Assembly (NCBI GenBank): GCA_026210745.1
Contig: CP110630.1
Location: forward strand, 2,480,001-2,544,000
Source: Exobasidium rhododendri
Taxonomy: Eukaryota; Basidiomycota; Exobasidiomycetes; Exobasidiales; Exobasidiaceae
DNA: 64,000 nt
Reading direction: 5' to 3'
The position numbers and the translations under genes are program-made. The first letter of the stretch is position 1. Every line of letters starts with the position of its first letter. The notes under the pieces were generated by a model that was not told where the DNA came from, did not search any database, and was given only the letters and a program-made list of their open reading frames with translations. Below are positions 15,915 to 25,359 of this stretch, one piece after another.

Positions 15915-16193
15915 TGTGGTAATCGGCCCTGAGTCGGTCTATCGGCCGATACACTAAGTAAGCATCCCTACGCCCGCACAGCATTACTACGCCATGGCAC
16001 AGCCATAAGACAGACGAAAGGTATATAGTCAGAATGCCGTCAGGTCAATGTAACGTAGATCCATCTATCCCTATGTCGAATATGATATCATTCCGTGTCA
16101 TGGCCATCGATATACATACTACTTCCGCAGCCACTGTACCAGAGACAATGGAACGTCGCGTGGTCTGAAGGGACACGCGGGTCAGATCTCACA
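15915..16193 (+). repeat. 5' LTR
   Basis: The 279-bp repeat starts TGTGG and ends TCACA, giving short terminal inverted repeats. A TATA-like GTATATAG occurs at about 16021-16028. It is identical to the 3' LTR except at 16109. Confidence 0.95.
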
Positions 16194-16207
16194 TAGGTTA
16201 TGAGCCC
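16194..16207 (+). other. Primer-binding site, half-tRNA type (initiator tRNA-Met)
   Basis: Directly after the 5' LTR, bases 16196-16207 (GGTTATGAGCCC) are complementary to GGGCUCAUAACC, the conserved anticodon stem-loop of eukaryotic initiator tRNA-Met. Priming from a cleaved 5' half of this tRNA is established for Drosophila copia and yeast Ty5. The match is seen directly; the mechanism is inferred. Confidence 0.7.
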
Positions 16208-16787
16208 AAATAGGATGCTACGCGGAAGCAGATGGCATAATCGAAGCCTACAAGGATGAGACCGTACTGCACCGAGATGCAAAACCGGAGAACTAAGAAA
16301 ACGAAAAATTGCAATCGAAGAAATCACAACCGAAGAAATCCAAACGAAGAAACACCATACCGTAGAAGCTCATACCGAAAAAATCGAAACCGAAGAAAAA
16401 AAAAAACCCAAGCTCTTAACAAACGATGCCCGAACGAAGAACCCCCAAATATCGTAGACCCCCCCCCCCCAACACCGACCAAACTCTATGCAAGACCCTG
16501 TAGAGGAGCATACCCCACCCTACACCGACGAAAGGCCATACCAAAGAAACCTAACATACGAGTCGTATTGGACCATGCACCGTGAATCATCGAAGCCTAC
16601 GAAACCGTAGGAAACAAGCAACGATAACATCGAACGAGTCTTATCGGCGTAAAAAGACAGCCTACCACCGTAGCCTACGATCGGAGCGTCTGAACACCGC
16701 ACTCACAACAACGTCACGCGGAAATCACACAAGGCACGGAAGAAAGAAAAAAAAAAGATGAAATTGAAAAGAAAAAATTACAAGTAC
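16208..16787. other. Retrotransposon leader with A-rich degenerate repeats
   Basis: This stretch between the primer site and the antisense gene carries repeated units close to CGAAGAAA (about 16,308-16,400), an A run, and a C run near 16,450-16,460. Near-palindromes of the type CGTAG-CCTACG recur here. The + strand open frames in it are low complexity, and I see no gene. Confidence 0.5.
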
Positions 16788-16816
16788 AAGAAGTCGTAGC
16801 GGCGCTACGACTTCTT
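16788..16816. repeat. Perfect 13-bp hairpin over the antisense stop codon
   Basis: Arm 16788-16800 (AAGAAGTCGTAGC) is an exact reverse complement of 16804-16816, with a 3-base loop. The TAG stop of the antisense gene (16807-16805) lies inside the right arm. The hairpin could serve in 3'-end formation of the antisense transcript or as structure in the genomic RNA leader; both are guesses. Confidence 0.65.
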
Positions 16817-18340
16817 CTTCTTCTGCTTTGGACCGAGATCTAAGACCTCCAGTTCGTAGCCTTGGTCTTCGAGGTCCCCCTCGACCATATCCGCCGCACA
16901 ATTCAACCTGGCAAGATCCCTCCCATACATGGCTGCCATCACCCGAACCTCCCGCCTCCAGCCAATCATGGACTCAAAGTCTTTCGGCCTCCTCTCCAAC
17001 AACCTCGCCGCCTCCGACATTGCTACCGACTGATCCTTGAAAGCCTCGACACGATCCGCCAACTCCTTGTTGATCATTCGCTTCCAGTAGGGGTTCGCTG
17101 CACGCAAGTCGACGTTGACCCTAGTCGGAACCCAGTCCAGATACTTGCCGCCTTTCCGTTTCTTGCCCTTGTTCTTGAAGGCATAGACGGCACGACGAAT
17201 GTCGGCCTCCAACTTGCCGCGGACCCCGTTCCCATCCTTGACTGCACAGTGACCAAGAATGTTAGCCGCCATACTCGTAGCCTACGGAATCACCACGACT
17301 CACAAATTTGATCGGCATTGCACCGTGCACGACCACTCTTGTTCTTGTCGCAGGGAACACATGGCCGCGCCGGGTTGTTCTTGAACACCATGCAGACCTT
17401 ACCCTTGTCGACGCAGGTATAACAAGCGTACGTTGCCGGAACATACTCAGGCTGCGTAAAACACAAAAGATGAGACGTCAAAAGGCTCGCCGCCCACAAT
17501 ACCACATCGAAGTCAACTCACCAGTTTCGATTGATCAAAGTCGCCAGCTACGAAACCACCACGGAAGCCAGTCGCCGCAGTCGTATAGCTAGTGACACTA
17601 CCAGAGGCTTTTCCCTTTCCCTTTGCCTCAGAACGACTGTCATCATCGGCATCGTCATCTTCGTCGTCATCGTTGTCGTCATCGTCGTCGTCATCGTCGT
17701 CGTTGCCGTGGTAGTTATCGCTGTCACTATCGCCATCACTCTCGTCGCCGTCATCGTCGCTACCGTCGCTATCCTCGTCCACGTCAATGACTGGCATCTT
17801 ACCTTTCCTCCTAAGCTGATCGAGCGGAATCTGCGATGACCCCTGCGCACTAGCCTCATCACCCCCAGATTCCGATCCCGCAGCCTCCGACTCAACCCGA
17901 CTCTCCTTCGGTACCTCCTGTGACATCGCTAGAAGAAATGAACGGGTCGTACGAAATTGTTAGCGACAAGCATACAGACATAGCCGACAAGACAAATGTA
18001 CTCACCCTTTTCGACCTCCTCCGACTCACCCAACTCCTCGTCCACCTCGCCGGAACCCCGTGTAGATTCGTTGGCTACGAACAGAAAGATAAATCAACGT
18101 CAGCAACGTCAAACACGATAAGACCAAACCCCACTCGCACTCACCTCCACCATCGCCACCGCTCGTAGCTTTTGATGGCCCAGCCTCACTTGCAACAGGC
18201 CCACCACCACCACCACCGCTCTTCGAAGCGGCCCTGCTAACCCTCCTGGCAGCGGCAGCCTCCCGCGACGCCGCCTTCTTTCGCGCCTTCTCTTGCTTGG
18301 CTTCTAAAGCCTTCGCGAGACCCGAAGCTGAACCAGGCAT
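16805..18340 (-). CDS. Antisense spliced gene inside the retrotransposon; Zn2Cys6-like cysteine cluster protein
   Basis: Five exons on the minus strand: 18340-18145, 18074-18006, 17928-17522, 17451-17304 and 17241-16805. The four introns are 70, 77, 70 and 62 nt with GTGAG donors, and all phases agree, giving 418 residues. The N-terminus is Ala/Lys/Arg-rich and helical, followed by Gly/Ser-rich and Glu-rich parts. An Asp-rich run (about residues 150-190) comes next, then a cysteine cluster with spacing C-x2-C-x6-C-x10-C-x2-C-x9-C beginning CYTC and ending at RARC. This fits the consensus of fungal Zn2Cys6 binuclear DNA-binding clusters but sits mid-protein. The C-terminal 145 residues are charged, predicted helical, and end in KKKKS. 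The last intron has an alternative reading, with a start at a Met codon at 17272 in the same final frame. No function is known to me; a DNA- or RNA-binding regulator is possible. Confidence 0.75.
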
Positions 18341-19455
18341 AGTAACAAGTGTAAAAAGGGAAACGGGAGAATGGGTAAAAAGGGAACGGAGGCAAGAAGA
18401 GAAGAGATGGTGGAAGCGAAGGGGAAGGAAGAAAAAGGACGAGAACCGAGCTTAAGTACCTTCACAGAACCCAAGTTTTCGAGCCGAAATGAAGAAGAAA
18501 CTGTCGAGAGACCACGCCGCAGCTACCACGTTGCCCCCAACCGCTTCGTGCCCCAAAACGGTACGTTACCGGTAAATGACGACGGCACCGTCACTTGAGA
18601 AAGCGTCAAACAACGTCAAACAACGTTGCACGCAAAGACGGCGACGACACGGAGTAGCGCACAGACCCACTGAAACGCGTCAAACAACGTCAAACAACGT
18701 TGCCTGCAAGGATGGCGACGGCACCGCGTGACACACAGACCTACTGAAACGCGTCAAACAACGTCAAACAACGCTGCCTGCAAGGATGGCGACGGCATCG
18801 CGTTACGCACAGACCCCCCCTCCAGGAACTTCCAAACCCCAAACGCGTCACGCGACTTAGGCGCGCGCCGGCTTACCCATTACCGAGCCGGCCGGTATTA
18901 GTAGGACTGCGCAGCGTACGAAACATACCGCAGCCTACGATTCTGGACCCCCCCCTCCTTGGCACCAAACCGTTTGCGCTGTATCACGCGAGTTGCCTCC
19001 TGACTTTTGGCCTATACCGCTCCAGTACGCCTTGACACTCATCCAACACCACAGCAACGCCCTAAACACACACCGCCCTGTATCATCGACCTACCATCAG
19101 TGCGCAGCTTGCGATACGCCGATACGCCCCCTCCCTCGCCCCAACACTCAAACAGCATTGCCGCGACGCCCGCAATGACCGAACCCTGTGCCGACCGCCC
19201 GACCTCAGCCCGCAGCCTGCGATATGGCGTAACATTCCCAACGCCATGGATGAAATGGCAGGGAAGAAAACCGACACCGCCGCTACCCACGCCAAAAGGT
19301 ACATAAACCTGCCTATCTGCACAACATCCCCCTCTTTCCTCCACCCACTCTATCTCTTACAGACGTACTCTGGTAGTATATCTCACAGACTTCAGCTCGA
19401 AACCAAAAGACAAATCCGTATAAGACACCCTTCCGCAAACGACTACATCGTCAAC
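18341..19455. other. Region between antisense gene and gag
   Basis: This is about 1.1 kb that must hold the antisense gene's promoter and the gag leader. It contains three copies of a 74-bp unit (18,603-18,825) and C-rich runs near 18,813 and 18,948. The gag frame is open from ATG 19246 onward, so part of the right end may be coding. Confidence 0.5.
18603..18825. repeat. Tandem repeat, 74-bp unit, three copies
   Basis: Units begin at 18603, 18677 and 18751 with GCGTCAAACAACGTCAAACA. Each carries an internal direct repeat of CGTCAAACAA and a conserved GGCGACGGCA-type tail. The third copy decays into a C run near 18,813. Confidence 0.85.
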
Positions 19456-20742
19456 ATGTCCTCATTCAACACGATCGACCTTACCGAAACGGAGCGTTCC
19501 AAATTCGCTGCCGACGATTGCGCCTTCTTAGACAACATCGACATCGGATGCCTTAACGGGACCGACAACATGGACACGGCCGCGAAAGCGACAATCAACG
19601 GGACCATGCTTGAGACTGACAACTTCTCTGCCTGGTACCAGGAGATGCATGCCCTCTTTCAAGGAACCGGCGAGGAACGCGCCCTCGATATGCTCGAAGG
19701 GAAGGCTCGCGCTTCAATCGAAGCCTACCAACGCTACTTTGGTACCAAATGCCGCCCCGACCATCTCGGAGGCCCCGATTCCAAGCCAAAGGGCCCCTTT
19801 CTACTCTCGGCCACCCGTGCCCAACTTCGCCGAAAGAAGGAAGAACAGCACATCCGTATCATGATCTTTAACACACTCTCTCGTAAGGTCAAGGACCTCT
19901 TCAACCATCTTCGCGCCTCCCCATTACCGGTCATTTGGAAAGCTATTGAAGATCGTTACCGATCTTCTGCCCGAGACGCAGCAAGGGTGCTCGACTATCA
20001 ACTGTCAGCGTACCACCCAAATGGAAAGACAGTCACTGCCGTAGCCGACGATCTTTGTCAACTGTTCGCCGAACACCTTGCTTCCGCCGATTCTGAAATC
20101 CCCAAAGACAAGAAGACCAACTTCCTCTTGCGAGCACTCGAGGAACTCGCTGAGTCCAACAGACCACACCTCAAACACGGCGTTGAACGTTACCGTGAGG
20201 ATCATACTAAAGCTGAGACCCCATTTGATGAAGTCTTCCGTAAGGCTAGGGACCTTGACGAGAAGGAGATGAAATCTGCCTCCCGCAAAGGCGCCCCGAA
20301 CATGTTCAAGATCGAACAGCCGCAACGCTCGCAGCCTCCGATCCCGTACAAAACCCACAACAAAGAACGCTACAGTAACAACGCCGACCAAATGAAGCCG
20401 GACTGGCAACGGTGTAATCACTGCGGAGAGCTAGGCCACTTTGTCCGTGACTGTCACTCCCGCCGAGCCGGACAGAAGGCTACAACGCGCTTCGACGCAG
20501 AAGGGAACCTGGTCACTAAAGACAACATCATCATTCGCCACCACTACCAGAACCGCCTCCCACCTAACCGGCAACGCCCCTCGGCACCATACCAACAAGG
20601 CGGCCCTAGCACCCCACACCCCGGTTACAGCACTCCACCCCACCGCCCAGCACTTCGATACGTGACGAATGATCAACAAGACCTAGCGCAAGGTGCTTAT
20701 TTGGAACACACCAACAGTACAGAAATTGACCACCCAAACTAG
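19456..20742 (+). CDS. gag: Retrotransposon Gag, in frame with Pol
   Basis: Capsid/nucleocapsid polyprotein of the copia element. I take ATG 19456 (start MSSFNTIDLTETERSKF) as the likely start; the frame is open from ATG 19246, which would add 70 residues. The UBN2/retrotrans-gag-like region is central, and a CCHC zinc knuckle is visible near the end: C-NH-C-GELGH-FVRD-C (about 20411-20452). The frame ends at an amber codon (20740-20742) followed by GGA, after which the same frame runs straight into the protease. The product from 19456 is 428 residues. Whether the UAG is a regulated readthrough signal or a mutation cannot be decided from one copy. Confidence 0.88.
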   Translation: MSSFNTIDLTETERSKFAADDCAFLDNIDIGCLNGTDNMDTAAKATINGTMLETDNFSAWYQEMHALFQGTGEERALDMLEGKARASIEAYQRYFGTKCRPDHLGGPDSKPKGPFLLSATRAQLRRKKEEQHIRIMIFNTLSRKVKDLFNHLRASPLPVIWKAIEDRYRSSARDAARVLDYQLSAYHPNGKTVTAVADDLCQLFAEHLASADSEIPKDKKTNFLLRALEELAESNRPHLKHGVERYREDHTKAETPFDEVFRKARDLDEKEMKSASRKGAPNMFKIEQPQRSQPPIPYKTHNKERYSNNADQMKPDWQRCNHCGELGHFVRDCHSRRAGQKATTRFDAEGNLVTKDNIIIRHHYQNRLPPNRQRPSAPYQQGGPSTPHPGYSTPPHRPALRYVTNDQQDLAQGAYLEHTNSTEIDHPN

Positions 20743-22995
20743 GGATTCGCCGCGGCTGAACATACGGAGAACAACATTGTGGTCCACGATCATATTTTCG
20801 GCCGCATCGGCATCAACGAATCAACCCGATCGAGGTGGATCCTCGACTCTGGCGCTTCGACTTTCTTCGTGAACAACAGGGATTTTCTTCTGAATGAAAG
20901 CATTTGCGACGGTATGATCACCGTAGGGGATGGAAGCCAAGTGCAGATTGAGTGCATGGGCGACGTCGCCCTCAGAACAAAAGGAAATGACACCGTGTTC
21001 ATCCTGCGAAATGCACTCCTGTGTACCAAACTGACGGTCAATGTCCTCTCCACCAAAGGGATCAGCGCCGGTAATATGGGATACATCGCACCAAACGGCA
21101 GCCTCACATATCCCAGCCCCGACACCCTCCTGACGAGATTCAGTCTTGGATTCGGTGAGGTCGTGGTTGGAAAGACCGCCAAAACACTCATGATCGCACC
21201 ATTCGACAAAACCCTTCACGCTTACTCGCCCACAATTGAATGTTCCTCCTCTCTCGTAGGCAACGAGTTTCGATCGCAGCGTGTCGCCGCCTTACTCCTG
21301 AGTATCCGAGAGGGCAAAGACTCCGTGCTTCGCGAATTGACACTGTGGCACAAACGTCTTGGCCACCCGGGAATAAGTCAGATATCGATGATCGCGAAAA
21401 GGACGCCATCACTACCCAAAGCCTTACGATCAATCGGCGAAGGATGGAAAGATCTTCCTCCTTGCCGAGCCTGCGTTGTGGGGCAGCGACAACAAAAACC
21501 CTTTGGACGAAGCAGAAAGATAGCCGCAGAACCCTTCGACGTCGTCCACATCGATCTCAGCGGCATTCACGCATACAAGTCTATCTCCGGCAGCCAATAT
21601 TTCATGGTATTCTTGGATGACTGGTCACGTATGACTTGGGTCTACTTCATGCAGAAACACGACCACGAGACCCTCCTGCCCATCCTCAAGAAATTTCTAT
21701 CCGTGAAAGGTCCAAAGGGAGAGAAGGTTAAGAAGTTCCATGCCGATAACGAATTCAACCACGACTGGTTCCGAAGTTTCTGTGATAACGAAAACATCGA
21801 ATACTCCTTCATCCAGCCCCACACCCCACAGCACAACAGCCGCGTCGAGCGTATGATGCGCACGCTTAAGTCGCCCGCCCGGGCGATGCTGGGAGCATCG
21901 GGACTCCCTCTCGCCTACTGGGAATACGCCATCTCAGTTGCTGCCTTCATCCGGATCAGACTGCCGCATCGACGTTTTGGAATCGCACCCTACAAAAAAT
22001 GGCATGGCCGTCCGCCGAATTTAGCCTTCCTCCGAACTTTCGGATGCCTCTGCTATCCGTATTACAACAAAGTCGCCCGACAACAAGATGGTCTCAACGC
22101 ACCATACGACGTCCGGGCTTGTATTGGGATCTTCCTCGGCTACTCTACCCTCACGCTCACCTATATCGTCTACCTTCCACAAGAACACAAATTCACGGAG
22201 TCAAGAGACGTTGTATTCAATGAGTCTGCATACTGGACGTGGTCAAAGGAATCAGTTCTCGAGCATCGAAGAAACTGGTCGGCCTACAATCTATGGCCGG
22301 AAGACGCATCCGAGGCAAGAATTCGCCAAGTTGAGGACATCACAGACGACAACATCCTTGAGCACAACAAAAGCAAGATGGATAACTTATCGGAAGAGGA
22401 ATGTCACGACCTAGCTGAACAGACAACAAAGACACTCCAAGACGAACTCGCAGCCTCCGAACGCCACATCGAGGTACGACGGGAAGAGGAGCAGGAACGA
22501 GACAAGATCGCAGCCGCCGAACTCGAGAAATCTAAAGACGCGAAGGAAAGGCAAGAAGCGGAACTGAAGAATTGGGAAGAAGAAGCAATCCAAAGGCAAA
22601 TCAGACAACTAAGAGAGGAAGACAATGAAGACGACGTGAGAGCAACTGATTTGACTGATGTCTTGGCGAGACAAACGGAGCAGTGCGAAGGATTGGAAAC
22701 AAATGAAAACGAAGAATCGGAAGTGGCGGAAGAAGAACCTCCCACATCAAATGCAACGAAACCTGCTCAATGCACAGAAAACAACCCCGCCGCCACGACC
22801 GTCACCACCAACCACTCCCCCAACCCAACCACCACGAATATCACCGCCGACAACAACCCCGACCCCACCACCACGACCGTCGCCACCGACAACACCCCCG
22901 ACCCCACCACTCCGACCGTCATCGCCGACACTATCGCCGACCCCGACAATCAAGAACAGAACCGCCTCCAAAAGGCAAACGACCGCGCAAATTGA
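20743..22995 (+). CDS. pol: Retrotransposon Pol, protease and integrase part
   Basis: This part continues the gag frame after the amber codon without a shift. It has the aspartic protease motif WILDSGAST (near 20,839), an integrase zinc-binding H-H-C-C (HKRLGHPG, then CRAC), and the integrase catalytic core with its three acidic residues: the Asp of HIDLSG, the Asp of HADNEF, and the Glu in NSRVERMMRT. A coiled, Glu/Arg-rich linker follows, then a Thr/Pro/Asp repeat (DNxPDPTT-type units, about 22,786-22,940). The frame stops at UGA 22993-22995 and resumes in the same frame. No initiator Met is needed if translation arrives from gag. Confidence 0.87.
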   Translation, partial: GFAAAEHTENNIVVHDHIFGRIGINESTRSRWILDSGASTFFVNNRDFLLNESICDGMITVGDGSQVQIECMGDVALRTKGNDTVFILRNALLCTKLTVNVLSTKGISAGNMGYIAPNGSLTYPSPDTLLTRFSLGFGEVVVGKTAKTLMIAPFDKTLHAYSPTIECSSSLVGNEFRSQRVAALLLSIREGKDSVLRELTLWHKRLGHPGISQISMIAKRTPSLPKALRSIGEGWKDLPPCRACVVGQRQQKPFGRSRKIAAEPFDVVHIDLSGIHAYKSISGSQYFMVFLDDWSRMTWVYFMQKHDHETLLPILKKFLSVKGPKGEKVKKFHADNEFNHDWFRSFCDNENIEYSFIQPHTPQHNSRVERMMRTLKSPARAMLGASGLPLAYWEYAISVAAFIRIRLPHRRFGIAPYKKWHGRPPNLAFLRTFGCLCYPYYNKVARQQDGLNAPYDVRACIGIFLGYSTLTLTYIVYLPQEHKFTESRDVVFNESAYWTWSKESVLEHRRNWSAYNLWPEDASEARIRQVEDITDDNILEHNKSKMDNLSEEECHDLAEQTTKTLQDELAASERHIEVRREEEQERDKIAAAELEKSKDAKERQEAELKNWEEEAIQRQIRQLREEDNEDDVRATDLTDVLARQTEQCEGLETNENEESEVAEEEPPTSNATKPAQCTENNPAATTVTTNHSPNPTTTNITADNNPDPTTTTVATDNTPDPTTPTVIADTIADPDNQEQNRLQKANDRAN

Positions 22996-25044
22996 CGACG
23001 GGAAATGGAAAGAAAACTCGAACTTGCGAAAGCAGCGATCGACGCACGAAAGAAGGCCGAACCTAAAGGGAAAGAGAAACCTGCTTGGAGGTACGTCAGC
23101 AAATCATCCATCGACGAAGACAGGAAGCGGGCCGAAGACGCAGTAGACAATGTTCGCCTCGCATACGCCTACGACATCAAAGCAGCCGCCGCCAACGAAC
23201 GATCCCTCCTGATGACAGCCGAGATAATCGAAGCCTGCGAATCTCTGCCTCAAGACTTCTACTCCACACATGACAACTTCGACAAAAACAAAATCAATGA
23301 ATCGTTGGCAGCCATGCACATGCTCCAACGACAGCCAGCGACGCGAGCCTCCCTTGGAGGACAGCCTATCAGCATTGCCGAAGTAAAGAGGTTATCAGAC
23401 TGGCCAAAGTGGAAGGACGCCATGACGGAAGAATGGTGCACACACGTCGAAATGGGTACTTTTGTGCGCACAGAACTTCCACAAGGCAAGAATCTCGTCG
23501 GCTGCAAATGGGTCCTCACGGTCAAAATGGACCTCCTCGGAAGAATCACTCGGTACAAAGCAAGACTTGTGGGACAAGGCTACACACAGGTCCACGGAAT
23601 CGACTTCGAAGAGACGTTCTCCCCCGTCGTGAAGCTCACGGCTCTACAAATGATGCTGGGTGCCGCCATCATCAAAGGGTACCGAGTGAAACTCATGGAC
23701 GTGAAGACAGCATATCTCAACGGCACAAATGAGCATGAAATCTACATGACCATACCGATCGACTTCCGAGACCCTACGGACGGACCAAACACTGTGCTGA
23801 AAGTGATAAAATCCCTCTACGGATTAAAAGCGTCGGGACGCGAATGGTTCAAAACGCTCTACTCAAGACTCGCAGCCTTCGGATTCCGCCAATCAGACTA
23901 CGAAGACAGCGTTTTTATTCAAGACCGAACGAAGGCCATCCTACTCACCTATGTGGACGACCTGGTCTTACTATCACCCACAGAAGACATCGAAACAGAG
24001 GTAGCCAACATGCTACGATCTCAGTTCACCATGACCGACAACCCACCAGGAACGGCGTTCCTCGGAATTGCCCTCGAGCCGTTGGTAGACGGTCGCAGAG
24101 GCTATGCGCTAAGCCAAGAACATTACATCAAGACCATATTGAAACGTTTCGACCTCGAAAACGCAAAGGTAGCGACGCAGCCGCTACCAAGCAAGATCGA
24201 CCAAATCCACCCATCGCCGCCTTCGATGACAGCGACAAACGAATCGAAGTCGGAATACCTCTCGAAGATTGGATCTCTGCTATGGGTGTCACAAGTCACC
24301 AGACCTGACATATCGTTTGCAGTAAACTTCTTAGCAAGATTCTCAGCGAACCCGTCCGAGTACCACCACCAACTCGCAAACAACGTCCTACGATACCTGA
24401 AAGGTACAGCAAGTCACACCCTCGAAATGACACCGCTCTCGACCAAAGGCCCCGATGAGAAGCTCTACCTTCAACTACACAGTGACGCGGACTTTGGAGG
24501 AGACCGACAAAAGGGAAGGAGCACCACAGGGTACACGGTGTTCCTGAACGGGATGGTTATCGATTGGAAGTCACAACTACAGAGCACCGTTGCCCTAAGC
24601 TCCACTGACGCTGAAATGATCGCTCTCTCCACCACTTCCAGACGAGCGATCGGACTCAGGAACTTGCTCAAGGACGTGTTCGAAGGCTACGACCAGGAAA
24701 ACATTCCCATCTACACCGACTCGGCAACTTCGCTTGTACTCAGCGGAGAATTCGCAAACCACGAAAAGATTAAGCATCTGAGGCAAAAGGAGCAGTACAT
24801 TCAAAAAGCCAGAAAAGACGGAGAAGTCGACATCATCAAGATTGCCAGCAAACTGAACACCGCCGATTACTTGACAAAGTCGAAGCCTGCTGCGGACATT
24901 CAGCGATTCAAGCAAACCATTGGGCTAGGACGACCAGCGAGCAAGAGACAGGATCGCGCCAGGTCGGAATCAGGAGGAGAGGGGTTAAGGAGGAGCCAAC
25001 CCCAGGAGGAGGAGCCAGCAACTAAGAACGACTCTGAATCGTAG
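22996..25044 (+). CDS. pol: Retrotransposon Pol, reverse transcriptase and RNase H part
   Basis: Same reading frame as the protease-integrase part, separated from it only by the UGA at 22993-22995; the first ATG is at 23005. The copia reverse transcriptase opens with the block ending CKWVLTVKMD, carries the catalytic YVDDLVLL (near 23,950), and is followed by RNase H with HSDADFGGD and STDAEMIALS. The frame is otherwise intact over 680 residues and ends with TAG at 25042-25044, 36 bp before the 3' LTR. Domain order confirms the copia group. Confidence 0.9.
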   Translation, partial: RREMERKLELAKAAIDARKKAEPKGKEKPAWRYVSKSSIDEDRKRAEDAVDNVRLAYAYDIKAAAANERSLLMTAEIIEACESLPQDFYSTHDNFDKNKINESLAAMHMLQRQPATRASLGGQPISIAEVKRLSDWPKWKDAMTEEWCTHVEMGTFVRTELPQGKNLVGCKWVLTVKMDLLGRITRYKARLVGQGYTQVHGIDFEETFSPVVKLTALQMMLGAAIIKGYRVKLMDVKTAYLNGTNEHEIYMTIPIDFRDPTDGPNTVLKVIKSLYGLKASGREWFKTLYSRLAAFGFRQSDYEDSVFIQDRTKAILLTYVDDLVLLSPTEDIETEVANMLRSQFTMTDNPPGTAFLGIALEPLVDGRRGYALSQEHYIKTILKRFDLENAKVATQPLPSKIDQIHPSPPSMTATNESKSEYLSKIGSLLWVSQVTRPDISFAVNFLARFSANPSEYHHQLANNVLRYLKGTASHTLEMTPLSTKGPDEKLYLQLHSDADFGGDRQKGRSTTGYTVFLNGMVIDWKSQLQSTVALSSTDAEMIALSTTSRRAIGLRNLLKDVFEGYDQENIPIYTDSATSLVLSGEFANHEKIKHLRQKEQYIQKARKDGEVDIIKIASKLNTADYLTKSKPAADIQRFKQTIGLGRPASKRQDRARSESGGEGLRRSQPQEEEPATKNDSES

Positions 25045-25060
25045 GCCACGGTGTGCGGGC

Positions 25061-25080
25061 GAAGGAGATGAGGAGGAGGA
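25061..25080 (+). other. Polypurine tract before the 3' LTR
   Basis: GAAGGAGATGAGGAGGAGGA is purine apart from one T. It ends exactly at the LTR boundary, where a plus-strand primer is expected. Confidence 0.75.
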
Positions 25081-25359
25081 TGTGGTAATCGGCCCTGAGT
25101 CGGTCTATCGGCCGATACACTAAGTAAGCATCCCTACGCCCGCACAGCATTACTACGCCATGGCACAGCCATAAGACAGACGAAAGGTATATAGTCAGAA
25201 TGCCGTCAGGTCAATGTAACGTAGATCCATCTATCCCTATGTCGAATATGATATCATTCCGTGTCATGGCCATCAATATACATACTACTTCCGCAGCCAC
25301 TGTACCAGAGACAATGGAACGTCGCGTGGTCTGAAGGGACACGCGGGTCAGATCTCACA
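25081..25359 (+). repeat. 3' LTR
   Basis: This is the second 279-bp copy, with one difference from the 5' LTR (A at 25275). It is followed directly by the right target duplication GGTAC (25360-25364). Its promoter, if active, points toward the AIM6-like gene. Confidence 0.95.

Follow-up and report, generated by a model that had tools for sequence, protein, structure and literature searches.

An intron-bearing antisense gene with a Zn2Cys6-like cysteine cluster in a Ty1/copia retrotransposon of Exobasidium rhododendri

Introduction

The gene brtn of Boty-like elements, for which Zhao et al. 2011 is reportedly the source, is an additional gene lying antisense to gag-pol in a fungal long terminal repeat (LTR) element. 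Here we describe an antisense gene in a Ty1/copia element of the basidiomycete Exobasidium rhododendri CBS101457 (Exobasidiales), found in a stretch of 64,000 nucleotides (C1:2480001-2544000), hereafter the window. The gene occupies the minus strand at 16805-18340 of the window, between the 5' LTR and gag, and its five exons encode 418 aa. With moderate confidence, we propose an old antisense capture of a host-type gene by the copia element, followed by selective retention, and a probable regulatory protein as its product.

In Boty elements of Botrytis cinerea, brtn is an extra antisense gene (PMC7264820, PMC8365987, PMC4227169); the statement of an initial, sequence-only annotation of the window that antisense accessory frames occur in plant elements is therefore right for plants but too narrow. 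Unlike what these sources describe for brtn, the present gene belongs to a copia element and lies between the 5' LTR and gag; it has four introns and relatives outside the element. Antisense additional open reading frames (ORFs) of plant LTR elements mostly lie between pol and the 3' LTR, and regulatory roles have been suggested for them (PMC7264820, PMC11963269); for most antisense accessory genes of LTR elements, the origin is described as unknown (PMC7264820). Specifically, TRP28 of Retand, an antisense accessory ORF that is conserved, has been suggested to bind DNA, tandem repeats occupy the same region in about half of the Retand elements, and gene23 of maize Grande is an antisense ORF with a suggested nuclear location and its own promoter (PMC11963269, PMC7264820). 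As far as those accounts go, Retand and Grande differ from the present case in being plant elements, in the pol-3' LTR location, in their unrelated domains and in the stated unknown origin of most such ORFs.

HBZ of human T-cell leukaemia virus type 1 (HTLV-1) is a spliced antisense gene that encodes a bZIP protein. It is likewise an antisense accessory gene of a retroelement with a nuclear product, as we predict here, but it belongs to a human virus, starts in the 3' LTR and encodes a bZIP domain, whereas our gene belongs to a fungal retrotransposon and encodes a cysteine cluster. HTLV antisense genes are mentioned in the accessible text of PMC11963269 and PMC10186651. Retention of introns during movement has a precedent in Adineta vaga, where an intron-bearing host gene was mobilised by Penelope elements and the retention of introns is described as highly compatible with an antisense template (PMC3846280). 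In that precedent the gene was moved in trans and the genes of the element itself did not accompany it, whereas here it belongs to a copia element that also has gag-pol.

The accessible text of a 2011 survey of fungal LTR elements mentions complex elements with many inserted additional domains, and a word search of it found neither "antisense" nor "additional ORF"; the same holds for the two terms in the accessible text of a survey of ascomycete copia elements. Among titles and abstract openings in a literature search whose coverage left out most subscription journals, none mentioned an antisense zinc-cluster gene with introns from a fungal LTR element. As far as these searches go, the combination of a copia element, a leader position, four introns, selection and shared-intron relatives outside the element is new.

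Structure of the element and its antisense gene

The genome searched comprises 17.6 Mb in 4 contigs, and copy counts from that search are lower bounds. We refer to the window copy as A, to a second full-length element copy as B, to a relative on contig C3 as C and to a distant relative on contig C2 as D.

The element spans 15915-25359 of the window, has TG..CA ends and is flanked by a GGTAC target duplication; its two LTRs (279 bp each) differ at 1/279 sites. Pfam matches above cut-offs are rve, Pol_BBD, SH3_retrovirus and RVT_2, with integrase preceding reverse transcriptase (RT), and those below cut-offs are gag_pre-integrs, zf-CCHC, Retrotran_gag_2 and rve_3. By its paired LTRs, target duplication, integrase-RT order and RVT_2 match, the element is a Ty1/copia LTR retrotransposon, and the placement of the gene between its 5' LTR and gag in the initial annotation stands.

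Re-splicing of the minus strand at 18145/18074, 18006/17928, 17522/17451 and 17304/17241 yields 1257 nt, corresponding to 418 aa and a stop codon. The introns are 70, 77, 70 and 62 nt long, and all four follow GTGAGT...[CT]AG. The five-exon gene with four GT..AG introns that had been annotated from the sequence was thus reproduced exactly, and the public gene model CBS101457_001091 (P0001) is identical to the 418-aa protein. In a splice search of the minus strand of 16700-18450, the longest spliced ORF is exactly this frame of 418 aa, a length reached by 0/300 dinucleotide shuffles (median 95, maximum 308). Because the same search in 70 other window stretches, gene-bearing ones included, gave a median of 129 and top five values of 431-525, the length of the ORF by itself shows only that the locus looks like a gene. 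A chance reading frame is ruled out by the shuffle test together with the ratios of non-synonymous to synonymous substitution rates (dN/dS) given below.

A 13-bp palindrome with a 3-base loop lies at 16788-16816, across the antisense stop codon; read by eye, it is also present in B and nearly so in C.

Table 1. Coordinates of the copia element, its antisense gene and associated features in the window
Feature	Position	Strand	Remarks
5' LTR, 279 bp	15915..16193	+	GGTAC target duplication just before; 1 difference from 3' LTR
Probable primer-binding site, GGTTATGAGCCC	16194..16212	+	Read from sequence
Antisense gene, exon 5	16805..17241	-	C-terminal domain, lysine-rich end, stop 16805-16807
Antisense gene, exon 4	17304..17451	-	Whole six-cysteine cluster
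Antisense gene, exon 3	17522..17928	-	Long acidic D/E-rich stretch
Antisense gene, exon 2	18006..18074	-	Re-splicing, alignment of copies
Antisense gene, exon 1	18145..18340	-	ATG at 18340, basic N-terminus
Divergent spacer, antisense gene to gag; candidate shared promoter	18341..19245	.	Sequence
3.0 tandem copies of a 74-bp unit holding CGTCAAACAACGTCAAACAACG	18599..18816	.	Tandem repeat search
gag frame	19246..20742	+	Zinc knuckle and copia-type gag matches below or just below cut-off; ends at in-frame TAG
pol, frame as gag	20743..25044	+	Integrase then RT; in-frame TGA inside in A
3' LTR	25081..25359	+	GGTAC directly after

The cysteine cluster

Cysteines 234, 237, 244, 255, 258 and 268 of A are spaced C-x2-C-x6-C-x10-C-x2-C-x9-C, as initially annotated, and this cluster lies in the second half of the protein. 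All six cysteines are invariant across A, C and D and are present in B, and the spacing in D is CX2CX6CX9CX4CX7C. The canonical Zn2Cys6 spacing is CX2CX6CX5-12CX2CX6-8C; relative to this rule, the last loop of A is one residue longer and the C4-C5 distance of D is two residues longer. Fungal Zn2Cys6 regulators (Zn_clus, PF00172) have six cysteines like the protein of A, where the cluster reads CX2CX6CX10CX2CX9C, and differ from it in that no profile or Fungal_trans match is found here and the cluster lies in the second half. Genome-wide, PF00172 gave 76 matches, of which 69 were marked above cut-off (three only with neighbours in frame), and none lies at loci A, B, C or D, although the A cluster is uninterrupted within one exon. 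Strict membership of the Zn2Cys6 (PF00172) family, to which the cluster had been fitted at first, is not supported, since no profile recognises the cluster, and we therefore use the label Zn2Cys6-like; the protein appears to represent a Zn2Cys6-like family, so far from the E. rhododendri genome alone. A GATA-like reading, in which C-x2-C-x17-C-x2-C of A would follow the GATA spacing rule, was dropped because all six cysteines are kept and the spacing of D does not fit.

Both full-length copies found carry the gene

Copy B (C2:4423716-4433213) is full-length; its target duplication is TCAAT, and its two LTRs are distinguished by one site. A and B are the two full-length copies found, and in 2/2 the gene has the same location and strand. 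The target duplications GGTAC (A) and TCAAT (B) mark two independent insertions, so the gene has travelled with the element, in agreement with the initial annotation. B keeps the four splice pairs and an uninterrupted frame, and its exon length differs by an in-frame 18 nt. The possibility had been raised that the block is a separate non-element gene inserted secondarily into the window copy alone. A separate element-free copy does exist (C3:1746049-), but a secondary insertion restricted to the window copy is ruled out, because B carries the gene too.

dN/dS was estimated by the Nei-Gojobori method with 500 bootstraps. Between A and B, exon 5 shows dN 0.041 and dS 0.174, giving a dN/dS of 0.24 with 14.5 synonymous and 13.5 non-synonymous differences, and 0/500 bootstraps had dN>=dS. 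The corresponding exon 5 ratios against C are 0.26 for A and 0.24 for B. Over exons 4-5, the ratios are 0.25 (A-C) and 0.23 (B-C), each with 0/500 bootstraps at dN>=dS, whereas exons 1-3 against C give 0.30 over 132 codons of a gappy alignment. The element versions are separated from C by a dS of about 0.5, with the six cysteines and usable splice sites on both sides. The two other forward frames of exon 5 contain stops and have ratios between about 1.1 and 6. The reverse frame with coinciding third positions reaches 0.31-0.36 but holds 4-5 stops; ratios in the remaining reverse frames are 0.7-3.4, and one of these frames has a single stop. Additionally, A and C differ by 24% in exons versus 45% in aligned intron columns. 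Uncorrected A-B pN/pS values are 0.69 for gag and, for the first and second halves of pol, 0.46 and 0.24, so exon 5 is about as constrained as the second half of pol. Taken together, the dN/dS comparison across copies that the initial annotation had proposed supports conservation of the gene as a protein by purifying selection, with an A-B signal that is strong in exon 5 and weak in exons 1-4.

Differences between A and B are denser at 16706-17192 than in the surrounding sequence. By block, exon 5 diverges by 6.4% and the other blocks, some of them gapped, by 0-3.1%. At the 28 sites of exon 5 where A and B differ, C matches B at 17, A at 8 and neither at 3. Since B and C are 15% different in exon 5, simple conversion by C does not explain the tract; as a guess, it may have arisen by template switching with an unsampled element lineage.

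Relatives outside the element

A DNA search with the gene found A, B and C (C3:1746049-1746943, 77%), together with six more short matches in the repeat that encodes the acidic stretch. C, which corresponds to the public model CBS101457_005703, aligns with 16364-17698 of the window at 77% (with an overlapping alignment from 16311) and more weakly, at 64-65%, with 17976-18204, 18282-18617 and 18734-18864. Within 17.4 kb around C, no match to the LTR, gag, pol or RT of the element was found. Reading frames within 10 kb of C include ones with DAPG_hydrolase and Fungal_trans matches and two others that were tested there and assigned to no family. Introns 1-3 of C are as in the public model; for intron 4, our own reading uses the aligned GT..AG pair, which the public model does not use. 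CBS101457_005703 takes an earlier intron 4 donor and thereby loses the sixth cysteine, which the genomic exon still encodes, and its last-intron donor is probably wrong.

D (C2:1814614-1815677; L046:8614-9677) was found by protein search and has three exons in a gene model built for this analysis. Its alignment with A scores 153, against a shuffle maximum of 51 (n=500), and the C-terminal part alone scores 77 against 50. D keeps the six cysteines and the C-terminal domain. Its two introns, in phases 0 and 1, match introns 3 and 4 of A in position and phase, and in A and D alike the last intron falls just past N-[AG]-D-Q, the motif at the end of the cluster. Genome searches gave no LTR or RT match of the element near D, and apart from one 67-bp pair, long direct repeats are absent from the D region. 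This 67-bp repeat flanks D on both sides, and the three copies of it found in the genome are all on C2, no more than about 21 kb apart. Neighbours of D include an ATG14-family reading frame and another frame whose EamA match stays below cut-off.

The protein searches reach only relatives that have exact five-residue words in common with the query. Within that reach, a search with A matched only two E. rhododendri proteins (region 224-418), a search with D gave zero matches in a database from which D itself is missing, and a profile search, which scored only the 7998 candidates with the most words in common, again found just these two E. rhododendri proteins. In a scan of viral_contigs, 25 stretches fitted a pattern and none was confirmed. 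The database search suggested in the initial annotation thus uncovered relatives C and D in the same genome, while protein searches gave no relatives elsewhere. The two relatives outside any recognised element, together with the last two intron positions and phases shared by D, support the captured host-type gene that had been proposed from the window.

Origin and role of the antisense gene

The gene structure, its presence in both full-length copies, their independent insertions, the purifying selection, the element-free relatives and the shared introns are the observations on which the proposed capture is built. We suggest that a host-type gene was taken up antisense between the 5' LTR and gag, together with its introns and some of its flanking sequence. 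The introns would have survived retrotransposition because they are reversed in the genomic RNA and thus cannot be spliced from it. Thereafter the element would have carried the captured gene along, with selection preserving it, and the gene is most likely expressed from the spacer that it shares with gag. The make-up of the product suggests a nuclear regulator: it has a basic N-terminus, an acidic stretch, a six-cysteine cluster that may bind zinc and probably binds DNA, and a C-terminal domain whose end is rich in lysine. This protein would probably tune element transcription, perhaps by way of the 74-bp spacer repeats, and possibly also host targets of the parental gene. The spacer is 982 bp in B versus 905 bp in A and in B matches the repeat more than once; one CGTCAAACAACG motif lies upstream of the ATG of C. 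From this we infer that the 74-bp unit is a part of the promoter that was brought with the gene and amplified later, and a regulatory role at the divergent promoter of the ORF and gag is plausible.

Several observations weigh against this explanation. The Pfam search of the A protein returned no family at E<=10 and no Fungal_trans match. A PDB profile search gave 7 weak matches, taken as chance (the best, at E 0.038, an RNA polymerase subunit; three others Beclin-1 at E>1, one at E 3.7), and an AlphaFold model built from two sequences was unusable, with a mean predicted local distance difference test score (pLDDT) of 44.9, and was set aside. Full-length copies found number only two. Between them, exons 1-3 give a weak ratio of 0.36 on 9 differences (bootstrap fraction with dN>=dS 0.09 of 493), and exon 4 a weak ratio of 0.27 on 2 differences (0.02 of 303). 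The A-B introns differ at 3/279 positions (1.1%) versus 39/1257 (3.1%) in exons, because 28/39 exon differences fall in exon 5; outside exon 5, exons and introns are about equally different. The A-B selection signal therefore rests on one tract, perhaps a recombined one. Identity alone does not mark out the exons, since non-coding sequence flanking the gene on its 3' side also matches C at about 81%, and C could be a decayed piece of the element leader, with homology from about 16364 to 18864.

This last point bears on an alternative origin that we regard as unlikely, in which the gene is an old accessory born within the element, C is an old element remnant or a host takeover from the element, and D is an even older case. 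The homology of C extends through the spacer with one repeat-motif unit, which makes it resemble a leader piece; both full-length elements found have the gene, and protein searches gave no relatives beyond the E. rhododendri genome and thus no clear host orthologue. However, C lacks any LTR, gag or pol match around it and is intact, with a dN/dS of about 0.25 at a dS of about 0.5. Likewise, D adjoins the ATG14-family frame and the below-cut-off EamA frame, with no LTR or RT match of the element and no long direct repeats except the 67-bp pair nearby. Four spliceosomal introns are ordinary in a host gene but hard to explain in one born within an element.

Alternatively, the captured gene could be a passenger, intact by descent from a selected host gene and useless to the element. 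With two full-length copies, too few A-B differences outside exon 5 for strong inference and an exon 5 tract that may stem from recombination with another lineage, some room is left for this reading, which we nevertheless judge quite unlikely given the low A-B ratio in exon 5, its bootstrap result, and the six cysteines and usable splice sites kept on both sides of the divergence from C.

Antisense RNAs of Ty1 in yeast act through RNA interference or a block of gag-pol. That the transcript and not the protein matters here, by overlapping the genomic RNA in this manner, is very unlikely: the gene does lie opposite to the genomic RNA, within its 5' part, Piwi and Dicer_dimer domains are encoded in the genome and make a double-stranded RNA effect possible, and LTR-element antisense transcripts have been proposed to act so in the accessible text of PMC7264820, but selection acts on the amino-acid sequence, for which an RNA-only role has no need, although both roles may coexist.

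A bolder form of the capture of a host-type gene, possible yet doubtful, is that the element took a host regulator in antisense, with its introns and promoter, as its own transcription switch acting on the amplified 74-bp repeats in the divergent promoter that it shares with gag. Such a switch would link the element to the targets of the parent gene, and the protein would be a fungal counterpart of HBZ from a new zinc-cluster-like family. If true, the element uses a host-derived DNA-binding protein on itself. Because element copies, a close element-free relative and a distant shared-intron relative occur in one genome, capture, intron retention and later selection are directly testable.

Other features of the element and genome context

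Genome-wide, 11 LTR matches were found, of which four are the pairs of A and B, two are complete and five are partial. The two complete LTRs, without internal sequence in the fetched flanks, lie at C1:6704639- and C1:5155303-, and the partial ones at C1:459907- (two pieces), C2:121527-, C1:1999404- and C1:1999594-. Eleven more copia RT matches, 32-35% identical to the RT of the element, lie on C1, C2 and C3, and a genome search gave no match to the antisense protein near them.

The primer-binding site GGTTATGAGCCC is presumably the complement of the anticodon arm of initiator tRNA-Met, comparable to that of Drosophila copia. The motif TACGA occurs at 2.96 per kb in the element versus 1.69 per kb in the flanks, and no function was assigned from it. 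An in-frame TAG at 20740-20742, at the same place in B, separates gag from pol and suggests stop-codon readthrough that would set the gag:pol ratio. The pol frame of A also holds an in-frame TGA at 22993-22995, where the frame of B is open. Finally, an imperfect 39-bp tandem repeat lies within pol at 22782-22944, and the corresponding half of pol in B is 39 bases shorter.
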